Shown here in pieces: positions 17,712 to 24,866 of a stretch of DNA of 64,000 bases (its first letter is position 1; each line of letters opens with the position of its first letter). The notes beneath the pieces were generated by a model. That model made no database searches. It saw only the letters and a program-made list of their open reading frames with translations, and was not told where the DNA came from. A program made the position numbers and the translations under genes. The DNA comes from Methanomassiliicoccaceae archaeon DOK (GTDB lineage: Archaea > Thermoplasmatota > Thermoplasmata > Methanomassiliicoccales > Methanomethylophilaceae): positions 124,001-188,000 of the forward strand of contig CP047880.1 in the NCBI GenBank assembly GCA_009911715.1, read 5' to 3'.

Positions 17712-17769
17712 GGTCGGAGGCTGAAACTTCTTTTTTAAATCATATTCACATACGGAGTCAGTGATTCAA

Positions 17770-18081
17770 ATGGTTACAGAGCTCAACGAATCCAACTTCG
17801 ATTCCTTCGTGGAGTCGAACCACATCGCCATCATCGACTGCTGGGCGCCCTGGTGCGGACCCTGCAGGCGCATGGGACCCATTATCGAGGAGGTCGCCAA
17901 CGACCTCGCCGGAAAGGCAGGGGTCGCTAAGCTCAACACCGACGAGAACCAGGCCATCGCGGTCAGGTTCAACATCAACGCCATCCCCACGCTCCTCGTC
18001 TTCAAGGACAGGGTCCTCGTCGACGCGCTCGTGGGACTCAGGCCCAAGGAAGACATCCTGTCGTACGTGAGCGGTCTCTGA
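17770..18081 (+). CDS. trxA: Thioredoxin
   Basis: This 103-residue thioredoxin has the active site WAPWCGPCRRMGP (CGPC) at residues ~28-32 and the cis-proline INAIPTLLVFKD. It is a cytoplasmic dithiol-disulfide exchange protein. ATG 17770 is preferred over GTG 17761. The stop TGA overlaps the start of the reductase gene by one base, so the pair is translationally coupled. Confidence 0.93.
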   Translation: MVTELNESNFDSFVESNHIAIIDCWAPWCGPCRRMGPIIEEVANDLAGKAGVAKLNTDENQAIAVRFNINAIPTLLVFKDRVLVDALVGLRPKEDILSYVSGL

Positions 18082-18965
18082 TGGAGACAGACGTACTGGT
18101 CATCGGATCCGGGCCCGCGGGCATCCAGGCCGCGATCCACGCATCGAGGCGCAAGGTCTCCGTCGTAGTCGCCGGGAGGCCGTCCGCCAGCGCCGCCGCC
18201 GGCACGGAGGTGGACAACTACTTCGGTACAGGGCTCGTGTCGGGCGACAGGCTCATCGAGGAGGGCGTCCGCCAGGCCGAGTCCACAGGGGCCGTCTTCT
18301 CAGGACAGAACGTCATCTCGTCCTCCCGGGACGGGGAGGCGTTCCGCTTCGTCCTCGAGGACGGCACGGAGGTGGTCTCGAAAGCAGTGGTCATCGCCAC
18401 CGGGATATCCAGGAAGAAGCTGGGGATCCCCGGGGAGAAGGAGCTCTTCGGCAAAGGCGTGAGCTACTGCGCGGTCTGCGACTGCAACTTCTACAAGGGC
18501 CGCAGGGCCGTCATCGTCGGGAACGAGTCCGAGGCGGCGACCTCGGCGGAGATGATGACGGGATACGCCTCGGAGACGTCCTGGGTCGCCTGGGATGTGC
18601 AGGCCAGTCCTGTTCTGGTGGAGAAGGCGGAGGCGGCGGGGGTCAGGTTCTACGGCTCGAAGCCGCGCGCCATCGTCGGTGAGACCAAGGTGGAGGCGCT
18701 GGAGCTCGAGGACGGCACGACGATCCCCACGGACGGGGTGTTCATAGAACTCGGCGCCAGATCAGCGGCGGACATAGCCATGGACCTGGACGTGATGCCC
18801 GAGATGGACGACACCATCAAGGTGGGCACCGACTGTGCCACCGAGGTCCCGGGGGTCTACGCATGCGGCGATGTCACGGGCAAGCCGTGGCAGGTCGCCA
18901 AGGCCGTCGGCCAGGGCTGTGTGGCGGGAACCAACGCCGCGGCATTCGTGAAGGGAGAGAGATGA
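18081..18965 (+). CDS. trxB: Thioredoxin reductase-like flavoprotein
   Basis: The 294-residue flavoprotein has an FAD-binding GSGPAGIQAAIHA motif near the N-terminus, the redox pair CAVC at about residue 131-134, and GVYACGDVTGKPWQVAKAVG at the C-terminus. The second dinucleotide-binding region reads VIVGNESEAATSAEM in place of GxGxxA, and the HRRxxFRA NADPH motif is missing. Methanogens have deazaflavin-dependent thioredoxin reductases, so F420H2 or another donor is possible; that is inference. It is coupled to trxA upstream and to the XRE regulator downstream (ATGA overlap). Confidence 0.88.
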   Translation: METDVLVIGSGPAGIQAAIHASRRKVSVVVAGRPSASAAAGTEVDNYFGTGLVSGDRLIEEGVRQAESTGAVFSGQNVISSSRDGEAFRFVLEDGTEVVSKAVVIATGISRKKLGIPGEKELFGKGVSYCAVCDCNFYKGRRAVIVGNESEAATSAEMMTGYASETSWVAWDVQASPVLVEKAEAAGVRFYGSKPRAIVGETKVEALELEDGTTIPTDGVFIELGARSAADIAMDLDVMPEMDDTIKVGTDCATEVPGVYACGDVTGKPWQVAKAVGQGCVAGTNAAAFVKGER

Positions 18966-20267: not shown

Positions 20268-21813
20268 ACCGGACATCGTCGCGTTCTCGCGCGAGATCAT
20301 CGACGCCGTCAAGACCGGCAGGGTCTCGGACCGCGACCAGCTCCAGAATCTCAAGCTGAAGCTCTGCAAGGCCTACGGCTTCGGGGACGTGCCTCCGAAC
20401 TCGGACATCCTGGCCAACGTCGAGCCCGGGGAGAGGAAGCTGCTCACCCCGTTCCTGGTCAAAAAACCGACCCGTACCATCAGCGGTGTGGCCGTGGTCG
20501 CGGTGATGACGTCGCCGCATGACTGCCCCCACGGACGCTGCTCGTTCTGTCCCGGCGGCGTGCAGAACGACTCGCCGCAGTCCTACACGGGCAAGGAGCC
20601 GGCGGCCAGGAGGGCGGGGCGGAACAGGTTCGATCCGTGGATGCAGGTCACCGACAGGGTGACCCAGCTCACAGAGATAGGGCACAAGACGGACAAGATA
20701 GACCTGATAATCATGGGCGGCACCTTCACCAGCCGCGAGCCCGAGTACCAGGAGTGGTTCGTCCGCAGGTGCTTCGACGCTCTCAACGGCGTCGACTCAG
20801 ATACGCTGGAGGAGGCGCAGAGGCTCAACGAGTCGTCCGAGCACAGGTGCGTGGGGCTCACCGTGGAGACGCGTCCTGACGTCTTCACCCCGGAGCAGAT
20901 CGAGAGGGTGATGGGGTTCGGAGCGACAAGGGTGGAGCTCGGAGTGCAGATCCTCGACGACGACGTGCTCGCAGGGGTGGACAGGGGACACGGTACCGCG
21001 GAGGTCCGCAGATGCACCCGCGACTGCAAGGAGCACGGCCTCAAGGTATGCTATCACATCATGCCGGGGCTGCCGGGGTCATCGCCGGAGAACGATCTCC
21101 GCTGCTTCAGACGGGTGTTCGAAGACCCGGACTACCGGCCGGACATGCTGAAGTTCTACCCGGTGCTCGTGGTGGAGGGCACGAAGCTCTACGACATGTG
21201 GCGGAGGGGCGAGTACTCCCCGTACCTGGAGGACACCGCCACCGAGCTACTGGCACAGATGAAGCAGCTCGTCCCGGAATACGTCCGCATACAGCGCATA
21301 CAGAGGGACATCCCTGTCACGGAGATCTCCGCGGGCATACACAAGAGCAACATCCGTCAGCTGGTGGCGGACTACATGCGCGACAACGGGATGGAGTGCA
21401 GATGCATCCGCTGCAGGGAGGTCGGCCACAAGGGCACAGTCCTGAGGGACCCGTCCAAGGTCGTCCTCAAGGACACGGTGTACGACTCATGCGGCGGAAC
21501 TGAGCACTTCATAGCCCTGGAGTACGAGGATGCCGTGGTTGGCTACATAAGGGTGAGGCTGGACTCCAACCCCGAGGCGACCATCAGGGAGCTCAAGGTC
21601 TTCGGCAAGGTCGCATCCATCGGCGACGAGGGCGAGGACTGGCAGCACAGGGGCTTCGGAAGGGAGCTCGTGGCCGAGGCCGAGAGGGTGGCCCGCGAGG
21701 CCGGCAGGACGAGGATAAGGGTCACCAGCGGAGTCGGCGTCAGGGGCTACTACAGGTCCCTGGGCTTCGACTACGACCTTCCGTACATGGCGAAGGACCT
21801 CCGATCCCGGTAA
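20260..21813 (+). CDS. elp3: Elp3-type tRNA uridine-34 modification enzyme
   Basis: This 517-residue protein has an N-terminal helical region, a radical SAM domain with CPHGRCSFCPGGVQ (CxxxxCxxC type of Elp3, residues ~86-96), motifs TVETRPDVFTPEQIERVMGFG and TRVELGVQILDDDVL, the KSNIRQLV segment, and a C-terminal GNAT acetyltransferase domain (RELKVFG...QHRGFGRELVAEAERVA). It should add a carboxymethyl-type group to the wobble uridine of tRNAs using acetyl-CoA and SAM. Archaeal Elp3 works without the other Elongator subunits. ATG 20260 overlaps the preceding gene. Confidence 0.95.
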   Translation: MAEPDIVAFSREIIDAVKTGRVSDRDQLQNLKLKLCKAYGFGDVPPNSDILANVEPGERKLLTPFLVKKPTRTISGVAVVAVMTSPHDCPHGRCSFCPGGVQNDSPQSYTGKEPAARRAGRNRFDPWMQVTDRVTQLTEIGHKTDKIDLIIMGGTFTSREPEYQEWFVRRCFDALNGVDSDTLEEAQRLNESSEHRCVGLTVETRPDVFTPEQIERVMGFGATRVELGVQILDDDVLAGVDRGHGTAEVRRCTRDCKEHGLKVCYHIMPGLPGSSPENDLRCFRRVFEDPDYRPDMLKFYPVLVVEGTKLYDMWRRGEYSPYLEDTATELLAQMKQLVPEYVRIQRIQRDIPVTEISAGIHKSNIRQLVADYMRDNGMECRCIRCREVGHKGTVLRDPSKVVLKDTVYDSCGGTEHFIALEYEDAVVGYIRVRLDSNPEATIRELKVFGKVASIGDEGEDWQHRGFGRELVAEAERVAREAGRTRIRVTSGVGVRGYYRSLGFDYDLPYMAKDLRSR

Positions 21814-21826
21814 GCTGTTTAGCAAA

Positions 21827-21868
21827 TCCGTATATACGGATATTCTGTTTAAGCAATCACTTAAACAG
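21827..21868 (+). promoter_or_regulatory. Palindromic operator region of the ArsR/NifX-like gene
   Basis: A perfect 14-bp palindrome TCCGTATATACGGA (21827-21840) contains the likely TATA element. A second inverted repeat follows: CTGTTTAAG (21845-21853) with CTTAAACAG (21860-21868). A third half-site CTGTTTAGC is at 21815-21823. ATG is at 21876. ArsR dimers bind such sites, so autoregulation is likely. Confidence 0.65.
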
Positions 21869-21875
21869 TGACACC

Positions 21876-22664
21876 ATGGACGACATCACAGGCATCCTGA
21901 GGGCTCTATCCGATGAGACCAGGTTCTCGATCGTCACGATCCTGCTGAACCACGACATCTGCGCAGGAGCTGTCGCCAGGAGGCTCGGGGTGTCCGACGC
22001 CGCCGTGTCCCAGCATATGAAGGTGCTCCGCGACGCGGGGCTGGTCGAGTCCGAGAGGCGCGGATACTTCACGCACTACCGCGTGAACGTCGGTCTTCTC
22101 GAGGAGACCGCCGCCAGTCTGTCGGAGATGGCCGGATGGGTCCGCAGCCCATGCGACCCGGATCTGGAGGGATGCACCGAGGTCAGACGCGGCAGATGCC
22201 CAGCGGATAAGTGCAGCGGCGGATGTCCGAGGTCGGACGGCGACAGGTGCCCGGGATGCACAATGGGGTCATGCAATTCTGGAGATGCGACAATGAAGGT
22301 AGCAGTGACATATGAGAACGGGGAGATCTTCCAGCATTTCGGCAGGACCGAGCAGTTCAAGGTCTACGAGATCCAGGACGGGAGGGTGGTCTCCTCGGAG
22401 GTCGTCGGGAACGAGGGCAGGGGCCACGGCGAGCTGGTCGGGGTGCTCAGGCAGCTGGGGGTCTCCGTGCTCATCTGCGGCGGTCTCGGGATGGGTGCCA
22501 GGCAGGGCCTGGAGGCATCCGGTATCAGGGTCTGCTCCGGCAACGTCGGAAGTGCCGACGACGCCGTATCGAGGTTCGCCGACGGCACTCTGGAGATTCA
22601 CTCCGAGGCCACCTGCCACCATCATGACGGCGAGGAGCACCAGTGCACCTGCGGCAGGCACTGA
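21876..22664 (+). CDS. ArsR regulator fused to NifX/NifB-like (Fe-Mo cofactor) domain
   Basis: The 262-residue protein joins three parts. Residues 1-80 are an ArsR winged helix (LSDETRFSIVTILLNHDICA, GAVARRLGVSDAAVSQHMKV, LRDAGLVESERRGYFTHYRV). Residues ~90-137 are a Cys-rich linker with about nine cysteines. Residues ~140-245 are a NifX/NifB C-terminal-like domain (FQHFGRTEQFKVYEI, LICGGLGMGARQGLEASGIR), ending in a His/Cys tail (CHHHDGEEHQCTC). Such domains bind Fe-S or Mo-Fe cluster precursors. A metal- or cluster-responsive regulator is inferred. An in-frame ATG at 22293 has GGAG 8 nt upstream, so the NifX-like part may also be made alone. Confidence 0.8.
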   Translation: MDDITGILRALSDETRFSIVTILLNHDICAGAVARRLGVSDAAVSQHMKVLRDAGLVESERRGYFTHYRVNVGLLEETAASLSEMAGWVRSPCDPDLEGCTEVRRGRCPADKCSGGCPRSDGDRCPGCTMGSCNSGDATMKVAVTYENGEIFQHFGRTEQFKVYEIQDGRVVSSEVVGNEGRGHGELVGVLRQLGVSVLICGGLGMGARQGLEASGIRVCSGNVGSADDAVSRFADGTLEIHSEATCHHHDGEEHQCTCGRH

Positions 22665-24866
22665 TCATCCGTAGAACGGGATGGTGTCCCAGCTGGTGCG
22701 GCGCTTCTTGATGTCGCGACCCATCTTCCGGTAGTTCTCGAAGAGGGCCTCGTCCACGGACGGGCCGACCCTCTCCAGCGCTCTGACGAAATGGGCGGTC
22801 GTGACGCGTTCTGCGTCACGGTCCTCGCGGTAGGCGCACAGACCCGCCTCCCTGCAGAGGGCGGCGAGGTCTGCGCCGACATAGCCGTCCGTGACAGAAG
22901 CGAGCCATCCCAGGTCCACGCCGTCTAGGGGCATGCCCCTGGTGTGGACCTCAAGGATGCGCAGGCGGGAGGCCTCGTCGGGCTTGCCCACCAGGACCAT
23001 CCTGTCGAACCTGCCTGGCCTCAGGAGGGCCGGGTCGATCATGTCGGGCCTGTTGGTGGCCGCCATCACTGTCACGTTCTTCATGCTCTCGACACCGTCC
23101 ATTGATGTCAGGAGCTGCGCCACAACCCTCTCCCAGGCGGATCCGTCGCCCCCGCCGCGGATCGGGGCGATCGAATCGATCTCGTCGAAGAATATGATGC
23201 AGGGGGCCATCTGCTTGGCCCTTTTGAATATCTGACGAATGGCCCTCTCGCTCTCGCCCATCCACTTGTTCGCGACCTCCGGGCCGTTCACCGAGATGAA
23301 GTTGGTCCCGGACTCGTTGGCTATCGCCTTGGCGATGAGGGTCTTCCCGGTCCCGGGCGGGCCGTAGAGCAGGATGCCCCTCCCGGGCTCGATCCCCAGT
23401 CTCTCGTACGCCTTGTTCCCCTCCTCGGGGACGAAGACCTCCTCGATCTCCCTGCGGACGTCGTCCAGTCCGCCCACGTCGTTCCAGGTGACCTTGGGGA
23501 TCTCCACGAGGACCTCCCTCATGCCGCTGGGTTCGACGTCGTTCAGGGCCTCGCGGAAGTCGTTCATGGACACCCTCATGCCCTCTAGTATCTGGGACGG
23601 GACGGGTTTGTCCAGGTCTATGGAGCTCATGCGGGAGCTGAGGCAGCGCATGGCGGCCTCCCTGCAGAGGGCGGCGAGGTCCGCACCCACGAACCCCTGG
23701 GTCAGTCCCGCAAGGACATCGACGTCCACATCGTCGGTCAGCGGCATGTCCCTGGTGTGCACGTTCAGGATGTCCGCCCTGCCTTTGCGTCCCGGGACAC
23801 CTATCTCTATCTCCCTGTCGAACCTCCCAGGCCTCCTCAGAGCGGGGTCTATGGAGTCCTCTCTGTTTGTCGCGCCGATCACGATGACGTTCCCGCGGTC
23901 GCCGAGGCCGTCCATGAGCGTCAGGAGCTGGGCCACGACCCTCCTCTCGACCTCGCCGGACACCGAGTCCCTGTTCGGAGCGATGGAGTCTATCTCGTCC
24001 AGGAACACTATGCTCGGCGAGTTCTCGGAGGCCTCCTTGAAGATGTCCCTGAGCCTCTCCTCGCTCTGGCCGTAGTACTGGCCCATGATCTCGGGACCCC
24101 TCACAGAGTAAAGCGAAGCCCCGGATTCGTTGGCCACGGCCTCTGCGATGAGGGTCTTCCCGGTCCCGGGCGGGCCGTAGAGGAGCACGCCCCTGGGTGC
24201 GCCTATGCCGAGCCTGTCGAACAGCTCGGGGTGCTTGAGGGGCAGCTCGATCATCTCCCTGATGCGCTTCAGCTCCTCGTCCAGGCCGCCGACGTCGTCG
24301 TAGGTGATCTGCTGGCCGGTGTTCCCCTTCTTGGTCTTCTCCTTTCTCGGGGAGTCCCTGAGGACGATCTGCGTGCCCCCGGTGACGAGGACTGGCCCCT
24401 GGGGGACCGTGGAGACGACGGTGAAGGTCGACCTGTTTCCCATGAGGGCTATGTTCGGGACGATGATGTCCGTGCCGGCGACCAGGGGCCTCGCCATGAG
24501 TCCCCTGAGGAAGATGTCCTCGATGCCCTTCTCGAACTTGATGGTCTTCCCCTCGGGGATGTTGGGTGCCAGGACGACCTGCTCCGCCATCAGGGGGTCG
24601 CACCTCCGGACCGTGACGTTCTCGTCGACGCTGACGCCGGCGCTGGTCCTGGTCAGACCGTCTATGAAGATCATCCCCTTGCCCTCGTCCTCCGGATCGC
24701 ACTTGAACACCTTGGCGACCACCTTCCTCTTTCCCACTATCTCTATGGTGTCGCCTATGTCGAGTCCCAGCGCCCTGCGGGACTCCGTGTCTATCCTTGC
24801 GCGGCCGTACCCGGCCTCGGACTGCCTCTGGGCCATGCCGACCTTGAGGACGATGGATTCTGTCAT
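22665..24866 (-). CDS. cdc48: CDC48/VAT-type AAA ATPase
   Basis: The 733-residue protein has the VAT/p97 layout: an N-terminal double-psi-barrel and four-stranded domain (residues 1-180), D1 with Walker A GPPGTGKT (231-238) and Walker [16 protein letters not shown], and D2 with GPPGTGKT near 505 and [16 protein letters not shown], each with arginine fingers in R-PGRFDR. It unfolds proteins for degradation or remodelling in the cytosol. The C-terminus SWDTIPFYG ends in hydrophobic/aromatic residues that could dock on a proteasome. Length is typical. Confidence 0.96.

Follow-up and report, generated by a model that had tools for sequence, protein, structure and literature searches.

A candidate thiol-responsive autorepressor joining an ArsR-type winged helix to a NifX-type domain behind a conserved inverted repeat in a Methanomassiliicoccaceae archaeon

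The window, that is, the whole stretch of 64,000 nucleotides analyzed here, comes from Methanomassiliicoccaceae archaeon DOK, a gut-type methanogen, the genome of which is a single contig of 1,889,135 bases. At positions 21876-22664 of the forward strand, the list of open reading frames together with the Pfam and NF profiles showed a gene that starts with ATG and encodes an ArsR–NifX fusion protein of 262 amino acids. The gene is solitary: an Elp3-type radical SAM gene upstream of it ends at 21813, and the stop of a convergent Cdc48 gene abuts it at 22665. A thioredoxin gene and a thioredoxin-reductase-like gene (17761-18965) precede it by about 3 kb on this strand; no copy of the full inverted repeat described below was found near them.

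The fusion protein consists of four parts. Residues 1-88 (21876-22139, forward strand, as are the parts that follow) are an ArsR/SmtB-type winged helix containing an invariant C29. PF01022 (HTH_5) covers residues 13-59 of this part with 38.9 bits against a cut-off of 22, and NF033788 (HTH_metalloreg) gave 72.7 bits against a cut-off of 55, which places it among the ArsR/SmtB winged helices. Residues 89-139 (22140-22292) are a Cys-rich linker in which the motif CDPxxExC, containing C93 and C100, is invariant. The NifX-type domain, residues 140-240 (22293-22595), starts at a retained Met and is matched by PF02579 (Nitro_FeMo-Co) over residues 148-235 with 67.1 bits (cut-off 26.3). The last 22 residues (241-262; 22596-22661) are a His/Cys-rich tail that terminates in ...CHHHDGEEHQCTCGRH, and similar tails are also found on separate NifX genes. 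An earlier sequence-only reading had proposed this same layout, and the Pfam and NF profiles confirmed it. Its figure of about nine linker cysteines also agrees with ours, since eight are located in residues 89-139 and nine precede the NifX domain when C29 is included.

The AlphaFold model of the fusion protein has a mean pLDDT of 65.5. The values are mostly 70-92 in the NifX part and below 50 in the linker and the tail, and we therefore make no claim about the arrangement of the domains. A Foldseek search with this predicted model gave NifX-fold matches to PH0822 (E 1.3e-09), TM1816, MJ0327 and ORP, and the ArsR structures 6j05 and 2oqg, CadC and SmtB were among its fold neighbours.

Elsewhere in the genome, a NifB-type radical SAM protein carries a NifX domain of its own (L003 553-1812; TIGR01290, 433.8 bits against a cut-off of 343.65), and a third NifX-type protein adjoins a gene for an Mrp/NBP35-type ATPase (PF10609; L002 1447-2632). 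NifX-fold proteins are carriers of unusual metal–sulfur clusters. A NifX-type domain in a genome that contains a NifB homologue might suggest a regulator of nitrogenase-type cofactor assembly. However, PF00148 had only one partial match in the entire genome, the fusion protein scored 14.5 bits with the nifX equivalog TIGR02663 (cut-off 112), and the closest relatives of the domain outside the family belonged to gut-type Firmicutes (best 80 of 304 relatives). With the NifB equivalog TIGR01290 the fusion protein scored 19.6 bits (cut-off 343.65). The statement made beforehand that no nitrogenase gene is nearby thus holds genome-wide, where we found the NifB homologue and only the one partial PF00148 match. 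On the PF00148 and TIGR02663 results we rejected the nitrogenase link, and we regard such a role as extremely improbable.

The 62-bp intergenic stretch before the fusion gene contains two repeats. One is a perfect 16-bp palindrome, ATCCGTATATACGGAT, at 21826-21841, which holds a TATA-like core at 21831-21836. The other is the inverted repeat CTGTTTAAG-CAATCA-CTTAAACAG at 21845-21868, with the core TTAAG-N6-CTTAA; the full repeat ends 7 bases before the ATG. A palindrome over the TATA box had been predicted and is indeed present, but it is 16 bp long and perfect, and not of 14 bp as described. It had also been taken as part of a palindromic operator. We compared ten orthologous promoters, namely those in which ArsR is fused to NifX or lies directly upstream of NifX, and ATCCGTATATACGGAT was found in one of them, that of the own genome. 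We therefore rejected the palindrome as an operator; it is probably just promoter. In contrast, the 9-bp inverted repeat predicted downstream of the TATA box is both present and conserved: its core is exact in nine of the ten promoters, and in the tenth (G122) one base is changed. The spacer of the repeat varies, and thus the arms are the conserved part. The archaeal transcription start is expected about 25 bases downstream of a TATA-like core, so that the expected start of this gene falls inside the inverted repeat.

When the intergenic stretch was shuffled by a first-order Markov model, palindromes with arms of at least 8 appeared in 3 of 2000 shuffles, as did inverted repeats with arms of at least 9 and a spacer of 2-8 (again 3 of 2000). 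Over the whole window, one such palindrome was found against a shuffle mean of 1.3, and seven distinct inverted repeats of this kind (eight rows) against a mean of 2.7. Neither class is thus rare over the 64 kb, and the case for an operator has to rest on where a repeat lies and how well it is conserved, and not on how long it is. Only the inverted repeat gains support from conservation.

A genome search for the same repeat, which had been suggested as a check, was run. The full inverted repeat, allowing up to 3 mismatches in its 18 arm bases, was found at a single place in the genome, before the fusion gene, and no second copy at this threshold was found in the window. The core with at most one mismatch occurs at two places in the genome; with two mismatches there were 11 matches, fewer than the 34 of the reversed control. 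At the genome's own peroxiredoxin locus (L164), which is away from the fusion gene, no operator was found at one mismatch or less. With no second strong operator found, a regulon in the own genome is unsupported. Since the full inverted repeat occurs only once in the genome, the evidence favours autoregulation, not a regulon, and the earlier proposal of autoregulation is thus supported by a conserved, genome-unique candidate operator at the gene's own promoter.

The operator search across relatives took in 14 genomes. In four of them (G057, G120, G122 and G117), the sole match of the genome stands before the arsR gene, and in G003 and G012 one of two matches does. The sole match of G121 is located elsewhere, and the site at its own arsR has two mismatches; both matches of G021 are elsewhere. 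G010 had 5 matches, one of them at arsR–peroxiredoxin, with a high control count (14). Five genomes that had been chosen because earlier searches gave no arsR copy in them had 0-2 matches.

A search of 147 genomes of the order (E<=1e-14) found the ArsR part in 12. In eight of these 12 (G000, G003, G057, G120, G121, G122, G124 and G012), it is fused in frame to NifX. In two others the halves are separate adjacent genes: the ArsR stop overlaps the NifX start in G117 (TGATG), and the NifX start is located 5 bases past the ArsR stop in G123. In the remaining two, G010 and G021, the ArsR and NifX genes are dispersed. The window's genus accounts for seven fused genomes and for both genomes with adjacent genes; the eighth fused genome, G012, belongs to another genus and has different neighbour genes. 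The setting with Elp3 upstream and Cdc48 downstream was read both in the fused G122 and around the separate genes of G117 and G123. Cdc48 is downstream also in G120 and G121, and in G121 a permease-like gene takes the upstream place of Elp3. In a search of the phylum (389 genomes, E<=1e-25), 19 genomes gave matches, and within this sample both halves were in one frame only in G000, G057, G003 and G012. The loci L034, L035 and L036, which appear identical to G122, G120 and G057, were counted once.

It had been asked whether the fusion might be an assembly artefact. This is ruled out, because the host genome is a single contig and the fusion recurs in seven further genomes; the fusion is a real gene. 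The occurrence of adjacent genes and of a fusion at one locus, the so-called Rosetta-stone pattern, argues that the ArsR and NifX halves work together. Trees of the 12 sequences had weak inner support, with many nodes below 70, so that they do not fix the number of fusion or fission events. All eight fused copies have retained a Met where the halves join; of these, only G000 and G122 show a clear GGAG directly ahead of it.

The usual stop is missing from the fusion ORF in G121 (L158 5250 onward) and G124 (L159 5384 downward), and the frame runs on for about 1000 codons; where cdc48 was read, it lies antisense to this frame. The separate NifX genes with neighbours that were read mostly have no adjacent ArsR, and their neighbours are varied, some being metal transporters. 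For example, separate NifX genes at L124 (4181-5368), L122 and L119 stand beside a ZIP transporter (by Pfam), a NikR-like gene or metal ABC transporters (both by reading).

We then considered what the conserved cysteines may indicate. C29, C93 and C100 are invariant in all 12 ArsR copies, CDPxxExC is found in 11 of 11 rows of an 11-row alignment, and C108 and C117 are nearly invariant in that alignment. The other linker cysteines are variable, and G012 is without most of them. The Cys-x-Cys motif of helix alpha3 is a metal site of the ArsR/SmtB family. It appears as ELCVCD in Lmo1102, and C29 aligns with the first Cys of ELC; the fusion protein has C29-A30-G31 (CAG) there, with A30 and G31 nearly invariant. 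A cysteine in helix alpha2 of BigR, SqrR and HlyU has a role in persulfide sensing. In the fusion protein, the position of the Cys of HlyU ILC falls on T21, and the profile NF040642, which represents these persulfide sensors, gave 36 bits (cut-off 155). The alpha5 metal motif of ArsR proteins is given as DxHx10HxxE/H in the accessible part of PMC8960804; residues 71-88 of the fusion protein contain no His. Cys95 and Cys96 of AfArsR, which are essential according to the accessible part of PMC8470949, fall on A86 and G87 by alignment, and only Cys102 of AfArsR would land on C93, by ungapped extension.

These results bear on the metal or Fe-S-cluster sensing that the earlier sequence-only reading had proposed, and in particular on whether the protein is a classical ArsR-type sensor of soft metals or arsenite, with the Cys linker as the metal site and the NifX domain as a metal buffer. 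The fold neighbours obtained with the predicted model include the As(III)-responsive 6j05, CadC and SmtB; the alignment of C29 and the metal transporters beside some separate NifX genes also fit such a sensor. However, the protein has neither the alpha3 pair nor the alpha5 His site nor the AfArsR site, so that a classical ArsR metal site is unsupported, and the flanking genes that were read or scanned included no identified efflux or ars gene. We therefore consider a classical metal sensor unlikely. What the cysteines may form instead is a thiol switch or an atypical thiolate site.

The relatives with an unfused ArsR show a different setting. In G010, one strand carries, in this order, the ArsR gene (the protein has a Cys-rich tail of its own), an AhpC/TSA peroxiredoxin gene, a gene read as TPR-like and a rubrerythrin gene. 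One copy of TTAAG-N6-CTTAA stands in the gap after ArsR, before peroxiredoxin, and a second in the gap that separates the TPR-like gene from rubrerythrin; two such sites occurred in none of 1000 shuffles of this 9,001-base stretch. G021, the sister of G010, has the same gene order; the copy of the operator ahead of peroxiredoxin is degenerate there, and the search gave no copy ahead of rubrerythrin. That is, the gene order of both genomes supports a probable role in oxidant defence, and the operators support it in one. Since the own genome has no second strong operator and none at its own peroxiredoxin, the link to stress rests on one related genus.

This setting suggests an alternative, namely that the protein is a thiol redox or peroxide repressor only, like MsvR or RexT, and that NifX is a co-regulated passenger which became fused through a shared operon. 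The adjacent genes in G117 and G123 agree with it, as does the retained junction Met, which would allow free NifX to be made. MsvR and RexT are precedents: the accessible parts of PMC3729527 and PMC8960804, respectively, describe their regulation as thiol-switched. However, the MsvR profile NF053755 scored 17.6 bits with the fusion protein (cut-off 220), and the protein is without the vicinal Cys pair of RexT. Furthermore, as described below, this NifX subfamily occurs with DUF134 as well, behind a different palindrome, and such a second pairing would be odd for a mere passenger. Taken together, we think that a purely redox reading deserves attention as the less probable account.

The pairing with DUF134 was found among the bacterial relatives. 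The sample is the best 80 of 304 relatives, ranked by similarity to the fusion protein, a ranking that favours the NifX half. In this sample 77 of the 80 loci are bacterial, nearly all from Firmicutes by title. An in-frame DUF134-type domain precedes NifX in 58 of the 77; 18 are without it and one is truncated. DUF134 was assigned by an in-frame motif and checked with Pfam in two loci, one fused and one separate: L037 has PF02001 and PF02579, and L071 has PF02001 alone, as the gene before NifX. PF02001 is absent from the ArsR–NifX protein by Pfam. L090 (1-2025) has an unfused arrangement, in which a DUF134-type gene is followed by a gene that reads as sulfite/nitrite-reductase-like and then by a NifX gene.

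Within 150 bases upstream of the 58 DUF134-type ORFs of this sample, the palindrome GACATATGTC is exact in 27 and has at most one mismatch in 48; all 58 were counted, including some with a start that was not placed, and seven of the ten ORFs without the site are such. Only one of the 18 NifX genes without an in-frame DUF134 is preceded by it (at most one mismatch). Over 646,594 bases, GACATATGTC occurs 50 times, against 0-2 in five shuffles. The palindrome, which often lies within TTATTGACATATGTCAATAA, precedes DUF134–NifX genes in L037-L113 and also stands at L170 4724-4733. An archaeon of the same order as our host, G076, has a DUF134-type version by reading, and GACATATGTC too. DUF134 is listed by Pfam as of unknown function, and it is annotated as a predicted DNA-binding protein. 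Because of this annotation and the palindrome, DUF134 presumably binds DNA, and GACATATGTC is a candidate for its operator.

Since the sample was ranked by similarity to the fusion protein, the counts of neighbours at its 77 bacterial loci describe that sample. The recurrent ones, with redox and sulfur genes among them, were regulators of the CRP/FNR type (15), rhodanese (14), chromate transporter (8), thioredoxin (7) and proteins resembling rubredoxin or rubrerythrin (6); four of these names come from Pfam on one representative each, and thioredoxin was named by reading.

From the above results, we lean towards the reading that the fusion protein is a thiol-switched autorepressor with a built-in cluster-carrier domain, in which the NifX half would carry or sense a metal–sulfur ligand. 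Repression by the fusion protein is suggested because of the position of the operator and the habit of the family; sensing by the NifX half is suggested because of its repeated pairing with DNA-binding domains and because IssA, according to the accessible part of PMC5524996, binds Fe and S. The ArsR dimer would bind CTGTTTAAG-N6-CTTAAACAG over the expected transcription start and keep transcription of its own gene from initiating. A stress signal directed at thiols, such as an oxidant, sulfane sulfur or a thiophilic metal or metal–sulfur species, would then alter C29, C93, C100 and the Cys linker, or load the NifX domain. The repressor would release the DNA and more ArsR–NifX protein would be made, and its NifX half may bind or carry the metal–sulfur species until free repressor builds up again. 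In this autorepressor model we infer the DNA binding, the repression, the nature of the ligand and the direction of the switch.

We also speculate, more tentatively, that NifX domains of the His/Cys-tailed subfamily serve as a sensor module that can be moved between regulators. That is, it may have been captured by ArsR in Methanomethylophilaceae and by DUF134 in Firmicutes and one archaeon, in each case as adjacent genes or a fusion, and each product may control its own gene through its own palindrome. The signal would be metal–sulfur or sulfane-sulfur stress in gut anaerobes. If this is true, a cluster carrier would itself be the sensor of its own regulator. The carrier is joined to two unrelated DNA-binding domains with putative operators, so that the idea can be tested directly on short DNA probes with two small proteins, and GACATATGTC offers a candidate operator for a domain of unknown function in Pfam.

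A search of the open literature by title and abstract, with subscription papers outside its scope, gave no report of an ArsR–NifX fusion or of a function of DUF134–NifX, and the accessible parts of the literature examined do not describe NifX-fold proteins as signal receivers. Like the ArsR/SmtB metalloregulators, the fusion protein has a winged helix and a palindromic candidate operator at its own promoter, but it lacks their alpha3 Cys pair and alpha5 His site and has an added Cys linker and NifX domain. It resembles MsvR in having a methanogen host, and MsvR is a Cys-modulated repressor of its own gene in the accessible part of PMC3729527; MsvR has a V4R domain in contrast to the NifX domain here. 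With IssA and ORP it has the NifX fold and the domain family in common, by structure comparison and the accessible part of PMC5524996, but these two are without a DNA-binding domain, and the tail of IssA is Gly-rich and cationic in that source, in contrast to the 22-residue His/Cys tail here. The fusion protein also resembles the DUF134 (UPF0251)–Nitro_FeMo-Co proteins of Firmicutes, which have a DNA-binding domain, often a Cys-bearing linker, a His/Cys tail and a palindrome before the start. The NifX subfamily is common to both and is 49-64% identical over the domain (best 80 of 304 relatives), whereas the N-terminal domain here is ArsR, and TTAAG-N6-CTTAA stands here in the place of their GACATATGTC.
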